The notes beneath the pieces are model-generated. The model was given only the letters and a program-made list of their open reading frames with translations, searched no databases and was not told where the DNA came from. A stretch of DNA of 64,000 nt from Sipunculus nudus (taxonomy: Eukaryota; Annelida; Sipuncula; Golfingiida; Sipunculidae): NCBI GenBank assembly GCA_026874595.1, contig CM049306.1, forward strand, positions 79,944,142 to 80,008,141. Direction: 5' to 3'. Of this stretch, positions 1,066 to 55,265 are shown piece by piece. The stretch's first letter is position 1. Each line of letters starts with the position of its first letter. The position numbers and the translations under genes are program-made.

Positions 1066-1181
1066 ATGCACTTGGAGAGGGAAGCCGTGTAATTCGTCCA
1101 ACTTTAAACTGAGGTTCACCAGCTATGGAGTGTGCTATACATTTAACGGTGACGATGAGCCCCTGATGACGTCACAGGCAG
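1066..1181 (+). CDS. Gene 1 exon A: finger region, YG-CY-FN box
   Basis: Acceptor TTTTTTCAG at 1057-1065, donor GTATGC at 1182. One base completes a codon from the missing upstream exon, then the exon reads CTWRGKPCNSSNFKLRF followed by TSYGVCYTFNGDDEPL. The C-x(2)-RG-x(2)-C then YG-x-CYTFN pattern is diagnostic of ASIC/ENaC extracellular domains. An NSS glycosylation sequon is present. The exon ends in phase 1. Confidence 0.92.
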
Positions 1182-2719: not shown

Positions 2720-5700
2720 CACATATATATATATATGTACGTAGAAATGCAATGTTACGACCTGCAGTTAAAATTCAAGGGTGTTTTTAAGAAGATAAAG
2801 TATGTTATAAATATTAGTAATATTTAGTTACATCTATAAGCATTGGCTGCAGAGAGCTATTAAGACTGACTTGCATTTTTTTTTCGTTCGTCCAAGGATC
2901 GGGTTCAAGTCTGAGTTTGACAATGAACACGGAACAATACGAAAAGATGCCAGGACCTCACCACGGGGAAGGGCTTAAAGTAAGTAATCCGGATTATCTA
3001 AAAGTCAGTTAAAATATTTTTTTTCTGAAATTGCCATCACAGGCGTACGCAGAATTCCTCCTGTCTAGGGAACGGTTGGAATAGCTGCGATGTGAACAAT
3101 TTGTAAACAAGTGCTAGGCGCTTGGCAAATTTTGGATACATAAATGTATAATTTATAACTTCTGTTAGCCTTGTAAATGTTTATAAACCAGAAAAATATA
3201 AAATAAAAATTGGTAAATGTTTTGAGCCACATTTATACATCTTAACCATAATTTCTTTTCGATTTGATGGGATTTTCGAAATAACCCCTTTAATTGTCGT
3301 GTTGATTGGGTGGTCGTTATGATCAGGTTGTTCCCAGTGCTGATAGGTTTTATTGTATTATACTTGTTATCATTACGTAAGTCACTTCAACATTTAATAC
3401 ATTTTTATACTTGGGTTGCTATTAATGGTTCACTTACTGGAATCATTACATCTGTGTACGTCACTTTAGAGTCATACCCTAGCAAAATGTTTTCGAGGGT
3501 TTTCCTGTACACAATTTGTCCCAAACACCAAATAATGAAAATAATAAAATGTCAATATCATTTCAGGTTCTGTTGCATGATCAAAGTGAGGAACCACTGG
3601 TCAAGGACTTGGGGTTTGCTGTCGGCCCTGGAACACATACGTTAGTTGGAGTGAAGAGGGTTGAGGTAGTGTATTCGAAATAAAGAATATAGTACAAAGC
3701 CTGTTGGTGCCAATTTCAACGAATGTTGATGAAGGTTTCCTCATGATAAGAATATTTTATTATTTAAACTTAATGATTAGAGGTTTTTGCATATGACTTT
3801 ATTTATATGAAATTTACCTTAAATTAATACATTAGAATACATCTCTGCTGTATTCTTGAAATATCACCAATCGCCATCAATGCTTTTGGTTGGATCGACA
3901 CTGGACGTTCATATGCGTATCCATAAATTGAAAGAGATATGTTGTCCACAAAAGGAGAAAATTATTTCCATACACTCAGCACAGCTACATATTGGTCACT
4001 AAGCTATATATAAGTCCTGTTTATATAAGGATCCGGGGTCACATTATTCTAATGACTACGGTACCAGTGCCATAATGATGAAAGAGATAAAGAGGAGATA
4101 GATGGTGCTCAAGCTGCACTTTTGACCCTGAGAGAACCGTTATATTATAAGTTTTCGATGAAATTTCAAATGATCAGCGGACAACTGGTTTATAAAAGAA
4201 ATGCTTTGCTGAACAGTTACAAAAAAGGAATGTAGAAAAAGAAATTTGATTGAAAATTAAGTATTTTATTTATTAAAGAACGGAAGCTTGGAGAAGACAA
4301 ATTTCTAATGCACATCAGAATAATAAAAACTAACGTGCGTCATGCCGTAGAAACGATATTATTTTTGGCTTAATGCCTAGGAAATTTACTCACGTTTGGT
4401 ACCTCACGGATGTCAAATATTGAAAACAGAGTTGACATAATTATTTAGACAATTTAACCAAAGACCTAAGGTTACAACCCATAAATCTCCATTGTTCATG
4501 TTGCTATTCTTGCAGATGCTTTTATTTCTTTATAGATAAGGGCTTCCTGTACATCAGTAAACTGCAACAAAATGTACTATATTATTTCATTATTTTTTAT
4601 TATGTTATATTAATTTTTTAAGATTTCAAGTTTACCAGACCCGCACGGTAACTGTCTTCATGACATCGAAGCAATGTCCACGTGCAAGTTCACCTGCCAG
4701 TCAAGGGAAATAGGGTCCAGGTGTGGCTGCGGAGTAGGAATGATGCCAGGGCTGGAGGCAGGTCAGTTTACTTCTATTAATATTGGTATACATATATGCA
4801 TGAGCAGTTAATTATATATGTGAATGCGCCAGAGGTCGCAATAAGAATACAGAGAACGGCCGAACCGCTTAGGAATTGAACCCTGGACTTTCAAAATTTC
4901 ACGTCCAGTACGATCACCACGTATCATTAAGCTTTTCCAACAGTATTTGTATTTTTTGTTTCACGGGTTAAACCCTCGGATATGAAGCAACGGACCTTTA
5001 CTCAAAGTTCCTTCTTCCGTGAAAAGTTAATTGAAAATATTAATGCTGCCACTCGATACTATTTAAACTGTATTATGCTACTTTCAATAAAACTATTTCC
5101 AGTAGTCGTTTCATGCATTTTTCACGTTATTTATATTTTTATTTATTTTTACTTCTTAATATTATAAACAGTTTTTATGTATATCGTCATCTAAAAGATG
5201 CGATATTTTGGCTGCTTACACATATATTTCAAAGCTTGAATTAAACTGTAAACTGATTTTGACAATATGCGTTCATTGATGCATGATAAAAAAATATAGT
5301 GCATTTGTGCATGTTTTTTTTCAATCCACGACAGTCTTCACACTTAACTCCTTTCATTTTAATGCCTCATCTGATAGTGTTTGAAATTTTATATCCAATT
5401 TTCTGTTCATACTTCAAACGGCATATGTATCAATTATTTAAAGTTTCGAACCTTATCGGTTCAACCACGTTTTGAAATCGAGCTTGTGAATTCTTGCAGG
5501 TCATATCAAAATATTTATTGTTATACAGCTTCTGCGCTCACATTTTTCGCGAATATTTTATTTTCTGAATGAAGACAAGGTCCTTAGTAATGTCGCTAAT
5601 TTGCTGCTATCTTGCAAGAATTCGTTGAGGTACGGAAAATAGAGGAAATTTTATATCGATCGTATAAAATCATTCATGAATTGAAGCACATTCATTTTAT

Positions 5701-8700
5701 TTCCTAGACAAGCTGGCAAAATTTCTAGTTTTGCTTCTCAACCAGCAAAGAAAAGCAAAAAAGATCACACTATATTTATTTTTGTTTCCAGAGTCCATGA
5801 AACATTTTTTTGTGTAGCCTCAATGATATGAATATTCAAAAGTCGTGTGTGTCAAATAGCTTTTTTGAATAAACACACTACCGGATTGTATTCAATACTT
5901 TTTCTTTGGATGAATGGCAACGCCATTATAGGCCGACATGAATACAGAATTACAGTAACAGATCGTCTTTTTTAACTTAGTGTACGGTGACAGATCTAGC
6001 ATGATCACCTGCAGGACCAGCCAAATTGGTCGTGTTAGCGGGAGGTTTTTATGATGATTTCATCTGTACGGGACCTAAAAAAAGTGGTTGATTTTGCAAG
6101 GGGTAGTTATTACAGCTGGGTGGTCGTCAGGGGAGATTTCACTGTATATGTGCCCAATCAATGTGTTTGTTTCTTTTGCAGATGTCGCTCCCTGTAACAT
6201 TAATTCCACCTTCACCTGCGTTCTGCCTTACTGGGGTAAGTACAGTTATCTTACGACCATTAATATCTTCTGTCTGGATGTTTTGATAACAAAGATGATG
6301 ATGTCTGGCACTGTAAAAGGTTCTGTTCTTTTAACTTTTTTTGCTATGATGCATTATGATAATGTTTTATCGTGAGTTCAATTATATTTTTACTGTAAAA
6401 GACTTAAGTCGGTTTAATCGTTGAAACTTTCATGTTGTTTGGAATTGTGACACATTATTTTTTGTTTTTTAAACCTTGACCCTGGTGGTCTTGGCCTTGT
6501 TAGGTGTCAGTATAAGCTTCTGAAGAAGGGGTCTTTATAAAAATGGGTGAATGGGTTAATAGTACAGATGCCAGGAATGTCTAGTATTCTCAAATGAGCA
6601 TCATCAGCCATCTGTCACTTTTTTTAAATGAGCATCATAACCCACCGGTCAATTTTCTTAAATGAGCATCATCACTGATTGGTCACTTTTCTCAAATGAC
6701 CACCGTCACCCACCGATCACTTTTCTCGAATGAGCATCATCACCCATCGGTTTCCTCTTTTTATTCTATCTAACAGAAACCGCCAAACATACCCAAAGTC
6801 ATTTGTAAAGAGGGCAGAATATAGATAATCTGTGTTTAATGATTATTCATAATTTTATTGACTCAATTGTTTAGAACTATAGGATTGTATACCATAATAT
6901 ATATAATGTTTCAGACTCTCTTACCGAGAAGGACCTTGACTGTGATTGCCAATTGCCTTGCCAACGTGTGACATATGAACCTATTTTGTCATATGCCCAC
7001 GTGTCTTGGTCGGGAGCGGTGCAAACGCAAGAAACGGAAAAGGGAATAGACGAGAAGTTCAAACATGCACGAGAAGTTGAACGAAGGGTGAAAAAGCACA
7101 TCGCTATCCGTGACAAACAGAAAATCGAAGATGTAGTTAACATAGTAAGTATGCCTCCCTAAAAGTATTGCCTCGGTGTTTATTTTTTTAAAGTCACATA
7201 AGCTCCATTGAGTTTTCCAAATTTACACTTTATACTGTGATTACCATTTTTTTTTATTGTAAGTAACAGAACACACCTTCTTGAAACAAAGATGCTTATG
7301 TCATACAGTACATAGAAAACATGACTTTAAAGCACCTAAACATTTTAAACTAATATTCAACATTACATCCAAATGATATAAGCCCAGCGGGTGGAAAAAA
7401 AATGTTATTCCTGTTAGACATAGAACCAGTGACATTATAAACACTTTAATTTCTAAACTGATGTTCAACATATAGTCTTTCACATATAATATTATATTAT
7501 ATATACATTTATTTTTAGATAGCGAAGCGATCACAAGTAGGCAAAAGTTTAATTTTCTTGATTGAAGAGCAGCCTTTGTCCAACGGGACGAAACGATCTG
7601 CGGTTGAAGTGTATTCACGTCTCACCATAGAATTTCAAAAAGTGATCAAAGAATTTGAAGTGAAACTACAACAGATTAAAACATTTCCTCCCCTGACATC
7701 CGTGTATTGGATTTCAAAAGAATTTCCAAAATTATTAGACCTCAATGTCAATTTGTCTGGATTTGCCACAATGTTATATAATTGTTCCACAAGTCTACCA
7801 CAAGCCGAGCCTGACGCATGCGGATTCGTTTGTGAATGGAATAAGAAAAAATATATAGGATGTCGTGAACACGAACTTCGCAGGTTTGAGCGAGAACTCG
7901 GGGTGACAGAGGATGATCTGGAGGGTCTTTATAAAGCATATATGTTTTTAGTAGAATTTCTGTTCGATGGAACAAATATGGCCTACAATGAAAGTGAAGT
8001 TCACCTCAATTGTTCAAATATGATATCAACCTCAGTATCAATCTGGAAGCCAGACTTTGAAAAAGCGTTCTGCGCTATAAAATCATACAAAAACGCATCT
8101 GTAAATGATTGGTTATCCAAAATCAGTGCTGTTGCGGAACTCCTTTTAGTATATCCACAAATGATGAAAAATTTGATAAAAGTTACAGACATCGCAGGGT
8201 CTTGCTCCTGGTTCACGCCTACTAAGAGCAATCTAGATATATACCACACATTCTACATGCATTTTCAATCGGCCGCTAAATCAAGCGGTTCCGCTTTAGA
8301 GATTCTCGGGTTCTTGAAAGACTGTCTCTGGAAAAGTTATGACAGAATAGGTCGTGTGAGCGAGTGGCTGGAAGAGCATCTCCAAAGTTATCTGGTGGGA
8401 AATATAACAAAGCAACAGATGCAGGTGGCATTGCATGAGATAAAAATTTCTAAATCACATTGGGATCTCTTGAATTGTGGCAATAGTTTAAAAAATCTAA
8501 ATCTACTCCTAGACAGAATGAATAAACTTTTCCTGGAGAACCTTAACGAAACAAATTATCTATTTCCTCCAGTGCGACCTGACTTTAAGAAATCAATTGC
8601 CGAGTATCTTGGACTCGGGTCATCAGATGAAACAGCCCTTCGCAACCAGTTGAACACATTCTTTGAAGCCTATTTTCAGAATGCAAAAGATGGATATACC

Positions 8701-10603
8701 GAAACGTTTGGTATTTATACAGAGCTGGACAGGACGATTGATTCCTTGGTGAATGAGTTCGACAGCTTCGTGGAAGGACTTGCCACTGATGAGGAGTTTT
8801 ACAAGTGAGTGTGGCGCCCATTTATAACACAGTATAGCGTATTTCAACTAAATAGTAGCTTGTTGTTCAAGCGTTTGATGTTGTTGCCATTATAACTGTC
8901 CCTGACTTTTAATCACTAAAACCTAAATAATTCAATAGCAAATGCAATTGCTATATTATTCACTCGGTCAATCTGAAACTAAATCATTGTCGTTGATGAT
9001 ATAGTAAAACCCCACCGTACGACGATCTCGGTTAAGGGGCCACCTCAAAATAGCGATCACTTGCTTACGGTTCCTTGTTTTTTTTGCTTTTTATGTAAGA
9101 CCCCGCTTAAACTACCATCTTGAAAATGCAACCATTTTATCGAGGTCCGGCTGGTGGTCGTAAAACAGTGACTGTGTAACAGTGTGTATTATATAGGTAA
9201 TTGTTTTATTAATAAATATTCAGAAAAATGGCTTTTTTAATATTTTTTAAATTAAAGGTACTTGTACTTGTACTCAAGTACAGACCCCTGTACTTGTAAT
9301 TGTACTCAAGTACATTAAAAAATTGTGTACTTGTACTTGTACTTGTCAAATTCTGAAGTTCTTGTACTTGTACTCAAGTACTGACCCCCTGTACTTGACC
9401 CAAGCCTGTTAGAAGTTGTGCCTAATAAATATGTGTGAAGTGATAAACGTGTGTCTATTGATGAGTCTTTTATCGAAAACGCACAAAAAAATCACCTTTT
9501 GCGGCAAGTCAGATAAACCAGGCGAAATGGCTTTTTGCAATAATTAATCTTTAAACTTCAGTACATATGCAGCCAAAAACCCTAACTTGCATGTTTCTTA
9601 TTTTTTTGTGAACATGGGCGAATGTACCATGTTTACTATCAGCTTGTAGATAAACAAGTACAAGATCCGTAACATTCGCCACAGCTGGCAAGTTACCGAT
9701 TATGCCAGGCGTAATTTCTCTATACAGCTATATTTTATTAGTAGGTCCTAGGCTTAAGAATACTCTATCCCAGAGTCTCAGAAATACAGAAGATATGTCA
9801 ACTACAAGCAACACTAAAGACTCGTCTATTAAAACTCCGTTATGACCATTAAGCTTTTGGCTACTGTAAAATAAATGCTCTAAATAACTTGACAATTTTA
9901 ACTGTGAATGTATGTGTGTGGTACATATGTTTTTGATGAACGTCTTTAATGTATATTTGTATAGCACTTATGCATATGATGAGTATGGACTTAAATAATA
10001 TGTAACTGGTACACATTGACATGATGGACATGTCTTTTAAAAGTAAATATTTGTGTATAAATGTTGTGTATATGCCAGTGATAAGCATGGACCTGGCATA
10101 TACACATATTATATATGTTGGAGAGGACTCAATAACACGTGTATCTATCTGTACTAAAGTGTACTAAAACGAAAAAAAAAAAACGAGTACGGACTTGCTT
10201 TATAAAACTGTGCTTGTTGGATATCCTTTTGGTGAATATGTATGGTACAAATTGGTTGGGAAGATGTATTTTGTTAACATTAACAAGAAAGCTTAAATGT
10301 AAATTGCCAGAGCTGTTTCCTATTCATTTTTTAATGTAATATCATAAATAAAATCGAGACATTCCCGAATATTTAGCCTATTGTATAATATCTATTTACA
10401 GTGAAAACTTCATCAAGATGGACATTTTCTACAACTCGCTGTCCTACGATAAGATTTCTCAACACAAGGCCTTGGAGGTGTTCAGTCTCCTGAGTGAGGT
10501 CGGGGGTTTCATGGGCTTGTTGCTTGGCGCCAGTGTCCTCACACTGTTTGAATTCCTCGACTACCTGACTCACAGAATCATCAATAAGTGGAGAAGTAAG
10601 TGA
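1066..10603 (+). CDS. DEG/ENaC (ASIC/FaNaC-like) channel subunit with giant extracellular insertion; 5' partial
   Basis: Amiloride-sensitive-type cation channel subunit of the plasma membrane. Eight exons join in frame: 1066-1181, 2897-2979, 3567-3665, 4623-4761, 6182-6235, 6915-7144, 7519-8804 and 10402-10603, all with AG acceptors and GT donors and compatible phases (2/1, 1/0, 0/0, 0/1, 1/1, 1/0, 0/2, 2). The ~735 residues seen include, in order, the YGVCYTFN box, GPGTHTLVGV box, SLPDPHGNC, a Cys-rich thumb region, CDCQLPC...LSYA, a ~470-residue insertion, ENFIKMDIFYNSLSY, then GGFMGLLLGAS and TM2. The N-terminus, TM1 and first part of the extracellular domain lie upstream of the window or were not found. 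The GAS filter triplet and all-open frames argue for a functional gene. Gating stimulus (protons, FMRFamide-type peptide or other) cannot be read from this. Family assignment is secure; subfamily is inference. Confidence 0.93.
2680..2737. repeat. (TA)n microsatellite
   Basis: About 15 uninterrupted TA units, a short ACACATACACA interruption, then more TA, inside the gene 1 intron between exons A and B. Confidence 0.9.
2897..2979 (+). CDS. Gene 1 exon B: GLSL-like strand and loop
   Basis: Acceptor TCCAAG, donor GTAAGT at 2980. Joined to exon A in phase 1 it reads GSGSSLSLTMNTEQYEK then MPGPHHGEGLK. This matches the conserved family stretch where a G-L-x-L strand is followed by an acidic loop before the LLHDQ motif. 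27 full codons plus the split glycine. Confidence 0.9.
3567..3665 (+). CDS. Gene 1 exon C: LLHDQ and PGTHTLVGV boxes
   Basis: Exactly 33 codons in phase 0 between a TTTCAG acceptor and a GTAGTG donor. Reads VLLHDQSEEPLVKDLGFAV then GPGTHTLVGVKRVE. This is the palm/beta-ball core of the channel and one of the best-conserved blocks of DEG/ENaC proteins. Confidence 0.93.
4623..4761 (+). CDS. Gene 1 exon D: LPxPxGxC and Cys-rich thumb
   Basis: Acceptor TTTTTTAAG, donor GTCAGT. Encodes ISSLPDPHGNC, then a run with cysteines in the pattern TCKFTCQSREIGSRCGCGVG and the MMPG motif. In ASIC the matching block carries thumb disulfides and ends in HMPG. Ends in phase 1. Confidence 0.92.
4838..4930 (-). 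mobile_element. tRNA-derived SINE-like fragment
   Basis: The minus strand reads GATACGTGGTGATCGTACTG then CCAGGGTTCAATTCCTAAG. The second part is a good Pol III B-box (GGTTCAATTCC) and the first an A-box-like start at tRNA-like distance. It does not fold convincingly as a complete tRNA, so a SINE head is more likely. Located in the intron between exons D and E. Confidence 0.4.
6182..6235 (+). CDS. Gene 1 exon E: short Cys exon
   Basis: A 54-nt exon, too short to be found by ORF length, supported by a TTCTTTTGCAG acceptor, a GTAAGT donor and phase 1/1 compatibility. Reads DVAPCNINSTFTCVLPYW, equal to the ASIC block between the MPG motif and the EKD..C.C..PC block. One NST sequon. Confidence 0.88.
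6592..6752. repeat. ~34-bp minisatellite, 5 copies
   Basis: Units begin AAATGAGCATCATC and include CACCCACCGGTCACTTTTCTC-like text at 6592, 6626, 6660, 6694 and 6728. Intronic, between exons E and F. Confidence 0.85.
6915..7144 (+). CDS. Gene 1 exon F: CDC-x3-PC block and start of the insertion
   Basis: Reads DSLTEKDLDCDCQLPCQRVTY then EPILSYAHVSWSG, the conserved C-x-C-x(3)-C block with the LSYA strand. The remaining ~43 residues are highly charged and helix-prone (EKGIDEKFKHAREVERRVKK) and have no counterpart I can place in ASIC/ENaC subunits. Donor GTAAGT in phase 0 at 7145. Confidence 0.91.
7519..8804 (+). CDS. Gene 1 exon G: giant exon encoding an unrecognised ~430-residue extracellular insertion
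   Basis: Acceptor ATTTTTAG, donor GTGAGT at 8805; 1,286 nt with no in-frame stop, far beyond chance in this AT-rich DNA. It sits between the LSYA strand and the last palm strand before TM2, so topology places it outside the cell. The 428 residues are mostly predicted helical by eye (for example ELRRFERELGVTEDDLEGL). There are nine cysteines at exon residues 89, 101, 105, 115, 165, 185, 229, 269 and 320, and eight N-x-S/T sequons at 22, 78, 88, 157, 164, 192, 295 and 343, fitting a secreted/extracellular fold. There is no convincing TM segment. I do not recognise the domain. Its length is not a multiple of three, so skipping it breaks the frame. Confidence 0.88.
9003..9178. repeat. Dispersed repeat, copy 1 (related to 33995-34185)
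   Basis: Contains a GACGATCTCGGTTAAGGGGC-like start, GACCCCGCTTAAACTACC and TTTTATCGAGGTCC. A second copy at 34.0-34.2 kb has CGACCACTTCGGTTTAGTGAC, CTCGCTTAGATGAAA and CTTTATCGAGGTCCCGTTGG. The blocks are collinear, so this is a transposed, non-coding family, probably a MITE. Confidence 0.5.
9256..9402. repeat. GTACTTGTACT-rich repeat
   Basis: Dense iteration of ACTTGTACTTGTACTCAAGT, in four clusters separated by CAGACCCCTGTACTTG-like blocks. Intronic, between exons G and H. Confidence 0.75.
9490..9690 (-). repeat. Dispersed repeat family X, copy 1 (diverged)
   Basis: Collinear with 46670-46960: GGCAAGTCAGATAAACC, GCTTTTTGCAAT, ACATATGCAG, CATGTTTACTATC and TAGATAAACAAGTACAAG occur in the same order. 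The copy near 23.2 kb is in the opposite orientation. No coding potential seen. Confidence 0.5.
10402..10603 (+). CDS. Gene 1 exon H: last palm strand, pore, TM2 and C-terminus
   Basis: Acceptor CTATTTACAG at 10392-10401; the first base completes an Asn codon. Reads ENFIKMDIFYNSLSYDKI, then ALEVFSLLSEVGGFMGLLLG, then ASVLTLFEFLDYL. The GG-x-MG-L and G-A-S selectivity motif and TM2 are complete. The frame ends in WRSK-TGA at 10601-10603, giving a very short cytosolic tail. A good donor (GAA/GTAAGT at 10596) precedes the stop, so the transcript may instead splice to a further tail exon that I could not identify. Confidence 0.93.
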
Positions 10604-37044: not shown

Positions 37045-39830
37045 TGCCCCCGCCACAAAGTGGCCGGGGCATATAGTATTACCCATGTCCGTCATTCCGT
37101 CCTTCCGTCCTTCCGTCCTTCCGAAATCAAACAGTTGTACGGGGTTTTTTTCGCAATGCCTGCAGATATTGGCCTGATTTTTGGTGTGTGGGCAGATATA
37201 GACCAGTTACAGATCGAGTTCGCGTTTCGTCCCGGTTGACCTATTTTTGACCGTTTTACGGCTCCTAAACTTCGAAAATTTCATGAAAAATAGAAATATT
37301 CATGACAGATACACATGTACGGACTTTTTTTCGCAATGCCTGCAGATATTGACCTGATTTTTGGTGTGTGAGCAGATATAGACCAGTTACAGATCAAGTT
37401 CGCGTTTCGTCCTGGTTGACCTACTTTTGACCGTTTTACGGCTCCTGAACATAGAAAATTTCATGAAAAATATGAAATTTCATGACAAATACAAATGTAC
37501 GGACTTTTTTTCACAGTGCCTGCAGATATTGGCCTGATTTTTTGTGTGTGGGCAGATATAGACCAGTTACAGATCGAGTTTGCGTTTCGTCCCTGTTGAC
37601 CTACTTTTGACCGTTTTACGGCTCCTAAACTTAGAAATTTTCATGAAAAATAGAAATATTCATTACAGATACAAATGTACGGACTTTTTTTCGCAATGCC
37701 TTCAGATATCTGCCTGATTTTTGGTGTGTGGGCAGATATAGACCAGTTACAGATCGAGTTCGCGTTTCGTCCTGGTTGACTTACTTTTGACCGTTTTACG
37801 GCTCCTGAACATAGAAAATTTCATAAAAAATATGAAATTTCATGACAAATACACATGTACGGATTTTTTTCACAGTGCCTGCAGATATTGGTCTGATTTT
37901 TGGTGTGTGGGCAGATATAGACCAGTTACAGATCGAGTTCGCGTTTCGTCCTGGTTGACTTACTTTTGACTGTTTTACGGCTCCTGAACATAGAAAATTT
38001 CATGAAAATATGAAATTTCATGACAAATACACATGTACGGACTTTTTTCGCAATGCCTGCAGATATTGGCCTGATTTTTGACGTGTGGGCAGATATAGAC
38101 CAGTTACAGACCAAGTTCATGTTTTGTCCCAGTTGCCCTATTTTTGACCGTTTGACGGTGCTCTAACATAGAAAATTTTATAAAAGGTGCACATGTATGG
38201 ACTTTTTTTCGCAGTGCCTGCAGATACGGGCCTGATTTTTGGTGTGTAGGCAGATAATGACCAGTTACAGATCGAGTTCTTGTTTTGTCTCAGTTGACCT
38301 ACTTTTGACCATTTGTCTGCCCCTAAACTTAGAAATTTTCATGAAAAATAGAAATATTCATTACAGATACAAATGTACGGACTTTTTTTCGCAATGCCTT
38401 CAGATATCTGCCTGATTTTTGGTGTGTGGGCAGATATAGACCAGTTACAGATCGAGTTCGCGTTTCGTCCTGGTTGACTTACTTTTGACCGTTTTACGGC
38501 TCCTGAACATAGAAAATTTCATGAAAAATATGAAATTTCATGACAAATACACATGTACGGACTTTTTTTCACAGTGCCTGCAGATATTGGTCTGATTTTT
38601 GGTGTGTGGGCAGATATAGACCAGTTACAGATCGAGTTCGCGTTTCGTCCTGGTTGACTTACTTTTGACTGTTTTACGGCTCCTGAACATAGAAAATTTC
38701 ATGAAAAATATGAAATTTCATGACAAATACACATGTACGTTTTTTTTTCGCAATGCCTGCAGATATTGGCCTGATTTTTGACGTGTGGGCAGATATAGAC
38801 CAGTTACAGATCGAGTTCGCGTTTTGTCCCAGTTGACCTACCTTTGACCGTTTTACGGCTCCTGAACTTAAAAAATTTCATGAAAAATATGAAATTTCAT
38901 GACTAATCCACATATACGGACTTTTTTTTCGCAATGCCTGCAGATATTGGCCTCATTTTGGGTGTGTCGGCAGATATTGACCAGTTACAGATGGAGTTCG
39001 CATTTCGTCCCGGTTGACCTACTTTTGACTGTTTTACGGCTCCTGAACATAGAAAATTTCATGTAAAATATATATTTTCATGACAAATACACTTGTACAG
39101 ACTTTTCTTCACAATACCTGAAGATATTGGCCTGATTTTTGGTGTGTGGGCAGATATAGACCAGTTACAGACCAAGTTCATGTTTTGTCCCAGTTGCCCT
39201 ATTTTTGACCGTTAGACGGTGCTCTAACATAGAAAATTTTATAAAAGGTGCACATGTATGGATTTTTTTTCGCAGTGCCTGCAGATACGGGCCTGATTTT
39301 TGGTGTGTAGGCAGATAATGACCAGTTACAGATCGAGTTCTTGTTTTGTCTCAGTTGACCTACTTTTGACCATTTGTCTGCTCCTGAATATAGAAAGTTT
39401 CATGAAAAATATAAATTTTCATAACAAATGCATATGTACTGACTTTTTTTCCTCAATGCCTGCAGATACCACCCTGATTTATTTTGTGTTGGCAGATAAT
39501 GACGGTTACAGATCGAGTTTGCGTTTCATCCCGGTTGACCTACTTTTGATTGTTTTACGGCTCCTAAACAAAGAAAATTTCATGAAAGACTGAAATTTTT
39601 ATGGAAAATGCACATGTATGGACTTTTTTTCACAATGCCTGCATATCCTGGCATGATTTTTGGTGTGTTGCTTGATAATGACCTGTTACAAATCGAGTTT
39701 GCATTTTGCCCTTGTTGACCTACTTTGACCATACGACACCTCCTTAACTTAAAAATTTTCCAAATTTTACAAATGTTTCTAATTTGCCCAAGGCGGGGGC
39801 ATTCGTGTTGTTCCGACATATCTAGTTTTT
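37045..39830. mobile_element. Tandem-core element: 15 units of ~180 bp with inverted GCCCCCGCC ends
   Basis: The left end carries TGCCCCCGCCACAAAGTGGC and a GTCCTTCC microsatellite; the right end reads GCCCAAGGCGGGGGCATTC. Between them are 15 units, each with a variant of GCAATGCCTGCAGATATTGG and GCAGATATAGACCAGTTACA, at about 37153, 37333, 37513, 37693, 37871, 38051, 38214, 38394, 38573, 38752, 38934, 39113, 39277, 39458 and 39638. Most periods are ~180 bp, two are ~163. The layout (flank, tandem core, flank, short microsatellite) recalls the bivalve pearl / Helentron-type non-autonomous elements; that name is inference. It interrupts a BEL/Pao relic. Confidence 0.8.
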
Positions 39831-51757: not shown

Positions 51758-52056
51758 ATGTTTTGTGTGTGTGCGGTGCGTGCCACACAAGTGCGACCAT
51801 TTACGGTTAATGTTCAAGAATGGGATGAAAATATGCAAGATAAAAAGGAGGAAGAAAAGGAGAAAGAAAAGGATAAAGAAAATGAGGAAGAAAAAGAAGC
51901 AAAAGAGGAAACAAAAGAGGAAGCAAAAGAGGAAAACGTTGCAAAGACAGCAGAGAAAACGAGTTCTGGATGGGCAAGCTGGCAGGAGTTCATCCAAGAT
52001 ACGACCGTACATGGCGTCAAATATGTCTTTCCGGAACAGCCTTCGGCAGTTAGACG
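51758..52056 (+). CDS. Gene 2 exon 1: K/E-rich N-terminus and His-Gly motif
   Basis: An in-frame TGA at 51743-51745 bounds the frame upstream, so translation starts at Met1 (51758) or at Met26 (51833); the latter has A at -3 and is the better context. Residues ~28-60 are almost only K, E, D, A, T, encoded by a purine-rich strand. The last ~30 residues match the conserved pre-TM1 region. Donor GTGTGT at 52057. An AG acceptor at 51734-51735 could start a 5' UTR-containing exon. Confidence 0.85.
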
Positions 52057-54228
52057 GTGTGTTACACTTTTTGGGAATGAAATAACATTTTGAATAAAAA
52101 TAGGTATATAAATAGGTAAGCTTGTGAGTTTACTTAATATATAAGGAAACAGCCAGCTGAAAGGTAAAAAAAAATCTTCAACTTGTTTTCCCAATTAACT
52201 TTACAAAACATATTTATTCAAATGGTTATGGAAAAAGTTCGTGCGATCTTAATTCAACAGATTTAAGCTATTTAAACAGTTATAAAATAATATATAATTA
52301 GTTTTTAAATCACAAGCATATTCATATATATACTTGTACATATATGTAAATATTTATATTATCGGCTATATAGTTAAATTTTGTCAAAATTGGAGAAAAT
52401 ATTGATTTTATGCTAAATTTGAATATTGGTTTGTGTACCATAGCGCAAGGAGCATCTGCACAGATGATCTTCGCAGACATTCAAATTATCAGAGGAATCT
52501 AACAGTAACATCTTGTTAACCGCGAAAGTTATTAAGGCATCTTGTATCATGCGGCAGATAACGCGGAAGGTTTAACACAGTACAGTGCAGCACCGTATCG
52601 GAACACTTGAGGAGGGGGTCAGAGGTCGAGACCGGGAGTAAGCACACGTGCGACAATCTGTTATTCCGCATCAATAAATAACAATTGCAGACCAATTGTA
52701 TAAATTTAGCAAATAATCGGGGAAAAGTTTGGATAAAAGGTTTTCGGGAAAATGATGTTCAGATGAACTGTTTTATGTAAAATTTTATAATGTAAAACAA
52801 AAACTTCAAATACATAAGTAAAATAGATGAAGCCTTACGGCAGCCCCTTCATCAGTAATGATGATGACAATGGCAATTTAGCTTAAATGTTTGGTTTATC
52901 TATCACCTGTAACTTATAAAATAGTTATGACTGGCAAATAATTCAGGGTACACGTACGACCTCGGAAATTAAGTTTAGGTCTAGTATAAATATCAGGATA
53001 TTGGTTGAATTTTTTAATTCCCCCAATGACCAGTCCTGCTAATAATTAACTAAAATATAAAAAAGGAAACCAGTATGCCTCAGAAGTTATTGTTAATTGA
53101 TTCTAGCGAAGTAAAAGTGAATCTCCAAGATTATTTGTCAACACCATACAAATTAGAAGAAGCAGCACCATGTAACGTGTAAGATATCATGTCATATACG
53201 CGTTTCTCATCTCCGTCAGTTAATCATTCTATGGATAACCAGTCGGGTCAAAGTCAAAGCTAAGCTGAAGCAAAAGGAGTGGAAGACGGCGTCCCAGTTG
53301 TACTTTTGACACAGCGAAAATCTTGGCCAGCCAGTTCCCTTAGCAACAGGATAGTGGATAGATAAGATCTTTTCGAGTTTTAATTTGTCCAAGTTTGAGG
53401 GGATTTTTTTGGATGATAGAAGCGAGATGTCCTAAGCTATAATTTTTAAGATGCCCCGCCAAGCACAGCGTAAAATTTTCCAAGAGACATGATCCGGCCG
53501 GAGGCGAGCCGAGAAGTCCGACGAGTCGGCAAAGAATCAACACCCTCACCTATTCGATGACGAACGAATATACACCGCTACCACTAACCGCCGACAGCGA
53601 CATGCATTATCCAAAATTTGATCAACATAAGATGCATAGTAAAAGACTATAGGTGAAAAGATGGAACTATAAACCGCTTGACGGAATTATTCTAAATTTA
53701 GGGGAACAAATGGTGAGTTATCACCAACCCTTTAAAAACATATCCCCTGCCCCCACCCCCCCCCCCCGATAAAAACCATTTGAAAATCTATTTAGGATGA
53801 ATTGACTTTTTTTTTATTCATTATTATCAATGCGAAGCAAGATAACTTATCACCTGTGTCTGATATGCTGATTTGTCAGCCGGTTTACGCATAAATTACC
53901 AACCCAGTTACCACGAACCCTTTTTTCGGGGTCCGGAGAGGAGGCAATTAGATTCTAGTACGATTCCGGATGAAGGGATGGGTCCCGTAAGAATAGTATG
54001 TCTTGGTGGAGGTATGGACTCTATGTGTACCTTTCTAGCTACTGATGTATATTTTCCTAGGTTTATCTGGGCGTGCCTGGTTCTGACAGCCGCTGGTCTC
54101 TTCACCTGGCAGGTCGTGAACAGAACGTCTGAATATCTGCACTACAACAGCACTATCAACATCGAAGTAGACCACGCAGACAGCTTGGATTTCCCAGCCG
54201 TTACCATCTGTAACCAGAACAGTTACAG
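51758..54228 (+). CDS. Second DEG/ENaC channel subunit, N-terminal exons; 3' partial
   Basis: Two exons, 51758-52056 and 54061-54228, join in phase 2 to give ...QPSAVRRFIWACLVLTAAG. The product so far is 155 residues: a Lys/Glu-rich cytoplasmic N-terminus, WQEFIQDTTVHGVKYVF with the His85-Gly86 gating motif, RR before TM1, TM1 (about residues 101-120), an NRT sequon and the LDFPAVTICNQNSYR box just outside the membrane. These are the defining N-terminal features of the family. A strong donor CAG/GTAAGT ends exon 2 in phase 2. The finger, thumb, palm and TM2 exons were not found up to 64000. It is on the same strand as gene 1 and likely a paralogue in a cluster. Confidence 0.9.
52057..54060 (+). 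other. Gene 2 intron 1
   Basis: GT at 52057, AG at 54059-54060. AT-rich with a C run at about 53756-53768; no other exon or repeat identified inside. Confidence 0.75.
54061..54228 (+). CDS. Gene 2 exon 2: TM1 and FPAVTICN box
   Basis: Acceptor TATTTTCCTAG ends at 54060. Encodes FIWACLVLTAAGLFTWQVV (TM1), NRTSEYLHYNSTINIEVDHA and SLDFPAVTICNQNSYR. Donor GTAAGT at 54229. The frame is open upstream of the acceptor to 53873, leaving room for an alternative first exon. Confidence 0.92.
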
Positions 54229-55265
54229 GTAAGTTTGTATTGATCTTTTTTCAATACAGGACTAACAGAGGGAAAGAACAAATGCAGAAATTAGAGACTG
54301 TTCTCAACTGTATTACAGACGACAAAGAATGGGTTAAGGCAAGGGCTGGCAAACTTTCCCTCAAGGTGGCCACATTGAACATCAGCCAGGTCTCTAGCGG
54401 GCCGCATTGAGAGAAAGCCACATTTTCCTAATAAGAGGGATATTTTTTTTATCAGGAACATAAATATAATTTAAATATCTATGTTATTTGGTACACACAC
54501 AGATCATCGACAAGAATGAAGTTATGGTGTGTTGCTTTATAAATGATACCAAACAGTTTCTCAAGCTTTTATTGGAATATATGCGATTGCACACCGTTCT
54601 GAACACAATTATTTGCAGCCATGGATTAGTTGATGATGTGTGAATATATAAGTAAAACTGATTCCTCATCAAACTGATCTTTACCTAAAATTTTAAAACA
54701 GGTGCCCTGTAAAGACATATTTCAATGCGAGAATGGTTGAACCCCACAAATTGACCTCGCGAGCCACTGAGAAGGACAGATGCAGGATTTAGGAAAAGGA
54801 GAGGTCCAACAAAAGAGGACTTTAACAAAACCTAAAACATCTTTCCAGGCCAGGAAAGGGGGGAAGGGGGGCAGGCCACAAAAATAGGTCTCAAACATTT
54901 AATATAAGGTTGCGGTGGCTTAAAGGGGGGAGAGGTATCGGACACCCTTGACCCTCCCTTTTGATTCGCTTCTGGAGAGTCCATAAAACTGTTTAGTATT
55001 AGGTGTACCTTGATTAACAAATCGTACATAAATGTCATTGAAGTGGTTTTAATGGTATGTACGTAATATTGATGATACGGAATTCAAGGGCGGAAGTTAC
55101 GACCGATTATAAATGTCATTAAAATACCGGCATAATGTTAATGTGAAGATTACATTTGATACGGGACTTATCAATTTAATGCCCCTTACTAACCTTTGTT
55201 TGAGAAAATGAGCAGATGTGAGCCGTTGTAATTCATTGTTGTTTCTTCATGCCTAATAAATGCAC

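Follow-up and report, generated by a model that had tools for sequence, protein, structure and literature searches.

The window, by which we mean the whole 64,000-nucleotide stretch of DNA analysed here (G000:C1:79944142-80008141, within a 1.43 Gb genome), contains eight exons of a gene whose product, judged from its sequence, is a subunit of the DEG/ENaC family of sodium channels. Alignment indicates that the knuckle helix alpha6 of this protein is replaced by an insert of 470 residues, and inserts of this kind recur in other channels of the same genome. The reading that we prefer, though tentatively and at somewhat less than an even chance, is that the insert recognises a ligand or partner outside the cell.

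The complete gene comprises 12 exons, four of which lie upstream of the window, and encodes 948 residues in one open frame that runs from an ATG to a TGA (10601-10603). All 11 introns have GT-AG boundaries, which bears out the claim of the initial annotation that some 470 residues lie here in one open, correctly spliced frame. The Pfam ASC profile (PF00858) matches the whole protein with an E-value of 2e-78 in two stretches, the best of which covers profile positions 1-389 of 455. Exon 6 matches up to position 391 and exon 8 picks up at 403; exon 8 by itself matches 403-455 with an E-value of 2.1e-15. Both TM1 and TM2 align to ASIC1, and the GAS filter is present in TM2. The exons found in the window are listed below, exon numbers 6, 7 and 8 being counted within the window only.

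1066..1181, forward strand: exon, finger and palm; splice sites and open frame, aligns to ASIC1
2897..2979, forward strand: exon, palm and beta-ball; splice sites and open frame, third tandem copy 96% identical
3567..3665, forward strand: exon, palm (LLHDQSEEPLVKDLGFAVGPGTHTLVGVKR); splice sites and open frame, two distant paralogues 77% identical
4623..4761, forward strand: exon, thumb region with conserved Cys; splice sites and open frame, aligns to ASIC1
6182..6235, forward strand: short exon, thumb region; splice sites and open frame
6915..7144, forward strand: exon 6, end of the thumb and strand beta10 (CDCQLPCQRVTYEPILSYAHV); ASC profile 353-391, ASIC1 alignment stops at query residue 301
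from about 7004, forward strand: tail of exon 6, start of the insert, with the motif HAxEVxRRV; motif kept in two paralogues
7519..8804, forward strand: exon 7, insert of 429 residues, predicted helical, Cys- and sequon-bearing, in place of knuckle helix alpha6
10402..10603, forward strand: exon 8, the last; final palm strand, TM2 and GAS filter, ASC profile 403-455

Two repeats are also seen in the window. The intron directly before the beta10 exon holds a 34-base tandem repeat (6587-6751), and a minisatellite with a 180-base unit in about 14 copies is found at 37136-39730.

The PDB chains closest to the window protein are those of ASIC1 (E 1.8e-48) and ASIC2, followed by ASIC5, FaNaC (7.7e-24) and the ENaC subunits. 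ASIC1 (PDB 7cfs), the closest solved relative by sequence, has the TM1-ectodomain-TM2 plan, cysteines and GAS filter in common with the window protein, but has just 15 residues at this place in the knuckle, which in the alignment stand opposite all 470 of query residues 302-771, a segment made up of exon 7 and the tail of exon 6. The initial annotation had placed this segment in the wrist and lower palm, just above the pore. That placement was dropped, since the insert directly follows strand beta10, whose proximal end joins the thumb and whose distal end joins the knuckle in the available text of PMC9052164; by the alignment, then, the insert takes the place of alpha6, and its location is the knuckle, at the end of beta10 that is farther from the pore. 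What survives of the earlier interpretation is a real, large, mostly helical and sequon-rich ectodomain insert in which no homologous domain is recognised. The FaNaCs (Aplysia, 7yvb; Malacoceros FaNaC1, 8on7) belong to the same family as the window protein, and in them the knuckle helix helps to build the peptide site: alpha6, which moves comparatively little, forms part of the FMRFamide pocket beside the finger of the adjacent subunit (PMC11026163, text available in part). The knuckle region of 7yvb is some 85 residues longer than that of ASIC1, as estimated from the match ends, but 7yvb matches the window protein less well (E 7.7e-24), and the window insert exceeds this extra length several-fold, with no relation seen between the two.

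Channels with such an insert are not confined to the window. In a search of the genome with the ASC profile the best 93 of 400 candidates were scored, so that all locus counts given here are lower bounds. Among the matches listed, 11 TM2-exon matches start at profile positions 398-401, as expected of an exon that follows the insert, and an insert frame lies just upstream of every one of them, the window gene included. Ten of these frames are open: nine over 429-478 codons, and that of locus L032 for 479 codons from the end of beta10. The eleventh, at L034 (C13:3870), is broken by a TAG and has 238 codons open. The insert is absent from all 17 listed ASC matches that cross the site unbroken, as judged from the length of the match against that of the profile; the largest excess among them is about 110 residues over the whole match, and the eight that were read at the site contain no such insert. 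When the window gene's other exons were used as queries, all 11 were recovered in order at L036/L041, although one match was weak (11 residues, E 0.033); L037/L042 gave nine in order, with no match to the first exon or to the exon of the thumb Cys. The insert frames at ten other loci, together with a third tandem copy that is about 78-79% identical to the window insert at a dN/dS of around 0.5, indicate that the insert is more than a chance frame, and the presence of at least 11 such loci argues for an established subfamily rather than a single odd gene. The Pickpocket 26 structure is a weak match to the window protein (E 0.00085), and we know of no comparable knuckle insert in the Drosophila Pickpocket family. 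In that family, too, DEG/ENaC channels have radiated extensively within one lineage, according to the part of PMC12304301 available.

The window insert matches no family in Pfam, and the 11 inserts together hit nine Pfam families, each from one member only and at a best E of 0.014. PDB sequences reached a best E of 0.97 against the single window insert and of 0.012 against the insert profile, the latter with a designed helical protein. AlphaFold, supplied with the 11 inserts, produced an all-helical model (mean pLDDT 67, pTM 0.46; average pLDDT 54 to 67 over five models), which, at low confidence, supports a mostly helical insert as first claimed. Foldseek of this model against the PDB gave 578 matches, none at E <= 0.001, the listed rows being a mixed set of mostly helical proteins. 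Viral and prokaryotic contigs scanned with sequence patterns likewise gave no significant relative. A known inserted domain was rejected on the basis of these four types of search, and the earlier statement that no homologous domain could be recognised holds for Pfam and for the PDB, by sequence as well as by fold. In the available text of the open-access literature, which leaves most subscription journals outside it, a large DEG/ENaC knuckle insert is not described, and the same applies to the accessible portions of PMC9975279, PMC9052164, PMC11026163, PMC10148893, PMC9822975, PMC7958617, PMC9234716, PMC9949801 and PMC12919962. Predicted proteins with the same insert may already be present in public databases.

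The exon-7 part of the insert contains nine Cys and eight N-X-S/T sequons, the same counts as in the initial annotation. Shuffled versions of the window insert have a mean of 3.5 sequons, and in eight of the 11 inserts the sequons are in excess at a shuffle fraction of <=0.022; no clear excess is found in L020 (0.098), L039 (0.216) and L034 (0.467). All ten aligned inserts share two invariant Cys, and the nine that have a residue at a third Cys position all keep it. The insert could, in principle, be a glycan-bearing tether to the extracellular matrix, with shear or touch pulling on the knuckle to open the channel. A mechanistic precedent is provided by human alpha-ENaC, in which the glycosylated knuckle residue Asn511 matters for the response to shear force, and by delta-ENaC, which becomes more shear-responsive when a sequon is added at the matching place (N487), the response being lost after hyaluronidase (PMC7958617, text available in part). 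The knuckle of alpha-ENaC has no large domain, and the channel is a weaker match to the window protein (6wth_A, E 3.8e-20); the alignment breaks off at query 304 and chain 494, 17 residues before Asn511, which would therefore fall within the replaced segment. Long predicted helices and the sequon content of the open inserts, eight of ten of which carry 8-14 (L020 has six and L039 seven), also suit a tether. Against it, many ectodomains carry sequons, the Pfam search brought up no known domain, whether matrix-binding or other, and a tether would not require such strong divergence from copy to copy. The tether is the main rival of the recognition reading but, in our judgment, a doubtful one.

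The extent of this divergence becomes clear when the copies are compared. With the window insert as genome query, matches were obtained at C3:64598266 (E 1.2e-18), C13:3870303 (E 2.6e-6), C3:20145482 (E 1.6e-4) and C13:9147045 (E 0.019), and L040 and L036 as queries connect the remaining inserts. Three single-insert genome searches gave 10, 11 and 13 rows, and every row at E <= 1e-3 falls on the 11 insert loci, the decayed second tandem copy (C1:80029029) or a partial copy on C14; two weak rows lay elsewhere, at C9:77987712 (E 1.31) and C13:9090367 (E 0.009, with two stops). Across nine full-length copies (36 pairs, the interrupted L034 and L032 being left out of the averages) the mean identity is 25% in the insert and 79% in TM2, and the lowest insert identity between copies is 13%. 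Compared with two distant paralogues, the window gene is 14-17% identical in the insert and 33-77% in the core exons. For the pair formed by the window gene and the third tandem copy, dN in the insert is 0.107 and dS 0.213, a ratio of 0.50 (bootstrap 0.35-0.76), whereas five core exons of the same pair (235 codons, three further core exons being left out) have values of 0.021 and 0.166, a ratio of 0.13. The ratio in the insert therefore exceeds that in the core about fourfold but stays below 1. Bootstrap medians for the thirds of the insert are 0.65, 0.35 and 0.52, with the intervals of the first and last including 1, and the insert of the C6 pair L033/L035 has a dN/dS of 0.59 (0.37-0.92). From the ratios of 0.50 and 0.59 against 0.13, the insert is coding and constrained, but less so than the core. 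Faster evolution at a dN/dS below 1 would suit diversifying recognition and relaxed constraint equally, and these ratios do not demonstrate positive selection.

One locus stands apart. The L032 insert (G000:C13:51312100-51315600) is of equal size, rich in sequons and located at the same site, but no link between it and the other inserts could be detected by sequence: as a genome query it matched itself only, and hhalign against the other inserts gave an E of 0.097 over 19 columns. It was left out of the ten-row insert alignment (A3) and of A4. The TM2 of L032 is 55-69% identical to those of nine family members, against 26-36% for eight channels without the insert, and for this reason L032 is taken as a probable relative of the insert family, with the homology of its insert unproven; that insert may reflect either extreme divergence or an independent insertion.

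The divergence also allows for an insert that has no sensing role, whether as a cap, as an assembly or trafficking element, or as an insertion that is tolerated and drifts with little constraint. Copy identities that fall as low as 13%, the dN/dS of about 0.5 and the lack of a detectable relation between L032 and the rest would all be compatible with this. Set against them are a frame that is open in ten of 11 loci, conserved Cys and a homology between copies that remains significant down to about 22% identity, and we consider a non-sensing insert quite improbable. That exon 7 is part of another gene or is normally skipped, a concern in that the gene model is built from genomic sequence, is highly improbable and was dropped, because exon 6 spliced straight to exon 8 runs into an immediate TGA, at all ten other loci the insert ends before a GT donor of matching phase, and L032 holds its thumb-end Cys, beta10 and insert in one exon, within a 524-codon open frame; the two further paralogues described above also have the window gene's other exons in order around the insert, with two exons missing in one. 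An AG acceptor lies directly before the start used at seven of the ten other loci and six bases further up at L037; L032 has none at the start used because its exon runs on, and at L034 the start used is past its stop.

At the positions that we take to correspond to ASIC H73, D78, K211, E411 and E416, the ASIC1 alignment places S, E, Q, N and D in the window protein, none of the five being identical. In the available text of PMC9949801 these residues are described as fairly conserved throughout the ASICs, and no putative ASICs are reported for the molluscs sampled. Since the five residues are not kept in the window protein, we infer that the window channel is unlikely to be triggered by acid; on the five residues compared it would not be an ASIC. 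In a tree of 52 TM2 residues ASIC1 and the insert family group together (0.90) against eight insert-less channels, with a support of 0.145 for the node that separates the insert family from ASIC1.

Remnants of other copies are also present. A decayed second tandem copy starts in the window (51938-54229 onward) and extends from C1:79996079 to about 80034000; two of its parts were located within the window.

51938..52081, forward strand: first-exon region of the decayed second tandem copy
54062..54229, forward strand: TM1 exon of the decayed second tandem copy; ASC match, window gene TM1 exon 94.6% identical

Of the exons of this copy, that of TM1 and one from the finger/palm region are nearly intact; a search for four from the middle of the gene came up empty. 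Its beta10 exon survives in part and continues straight into a partial insert, 75% identical to that of the window, and its TM2 exon has been split. A detached, incomplete copy of the insert lies at G000:C14:29806840-29807801; it shares 75-76% identity with the window insert and carries one in-frame stop. The same genome contains an FMRFamide precursor with many repeated FMRF units (L043, G000:C14:34780723-34781072), a possible ligand source for channels of the DEG/ENaC family and a feature that would suit a mollusc. COX1 gave nine matches of near-equal score and length on the G000 contigs C60, C61, C62, C66, C72, C74, C75 and C89; one translated COX1 is of bacterial type and at best 58% identical among the 80 named prokaryote records listed, which points to symbiont or contaminant genomes within the assembly.

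The reading of the insert as a recognition domain draws on its position at the alpha6 site, which in FaNaC forms part of the FMRFamide pocket beside the neighboring finger (PMC11026163, in the text available), on the insert frame shared by all 11 listed TM2 matches that start at profile 398-401, and on its ectodomain character, as seen in the sequon excess and conserved Cys. The 25% mean identity of the insert against 79% in TM2 describes a changing module on a constant pore, which fits recognition. On this reading the gene encodes one subunit of a channel, trimeric as is usual in the family, that has exchanged its knuckle helix for a large, probably glycosylated domain, predicted to be all-helical, which would stand at the outer corner, near the finger of the neighboring subunit. 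The domain would bind an extracellular ligand, a neighboring protein or a surface, and binding would shift the finger and thumb so as to open or modulate the conserved pore. The module diverges between gene copies over a core and pore that change little, as would be expected if the members of a receptor family differed in ligand or partner. It is a rather unlikely proposition that a new helical ligand- or partner-binding domain has taken over gating, giving rise to lineage-specific receptor channels that diversify copy by copy in the manner of a chemoreceptor repertoire.

As the insert is unmatched to known domains, these channels may sense what other DEG/ENaC channels do not. The DEG/ENaC family responds to inputs as different as protons, peptides, force and proteases, and how a single scaffold can serve them all has yet to be explained. 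Channels that naturally bear a knuckle domain of more than 400 residues, beside insert-less channels in the same genome, would offer a direct test of how input is received, and a knuckle of this size would revise the view of the knuckle as a small, static element.
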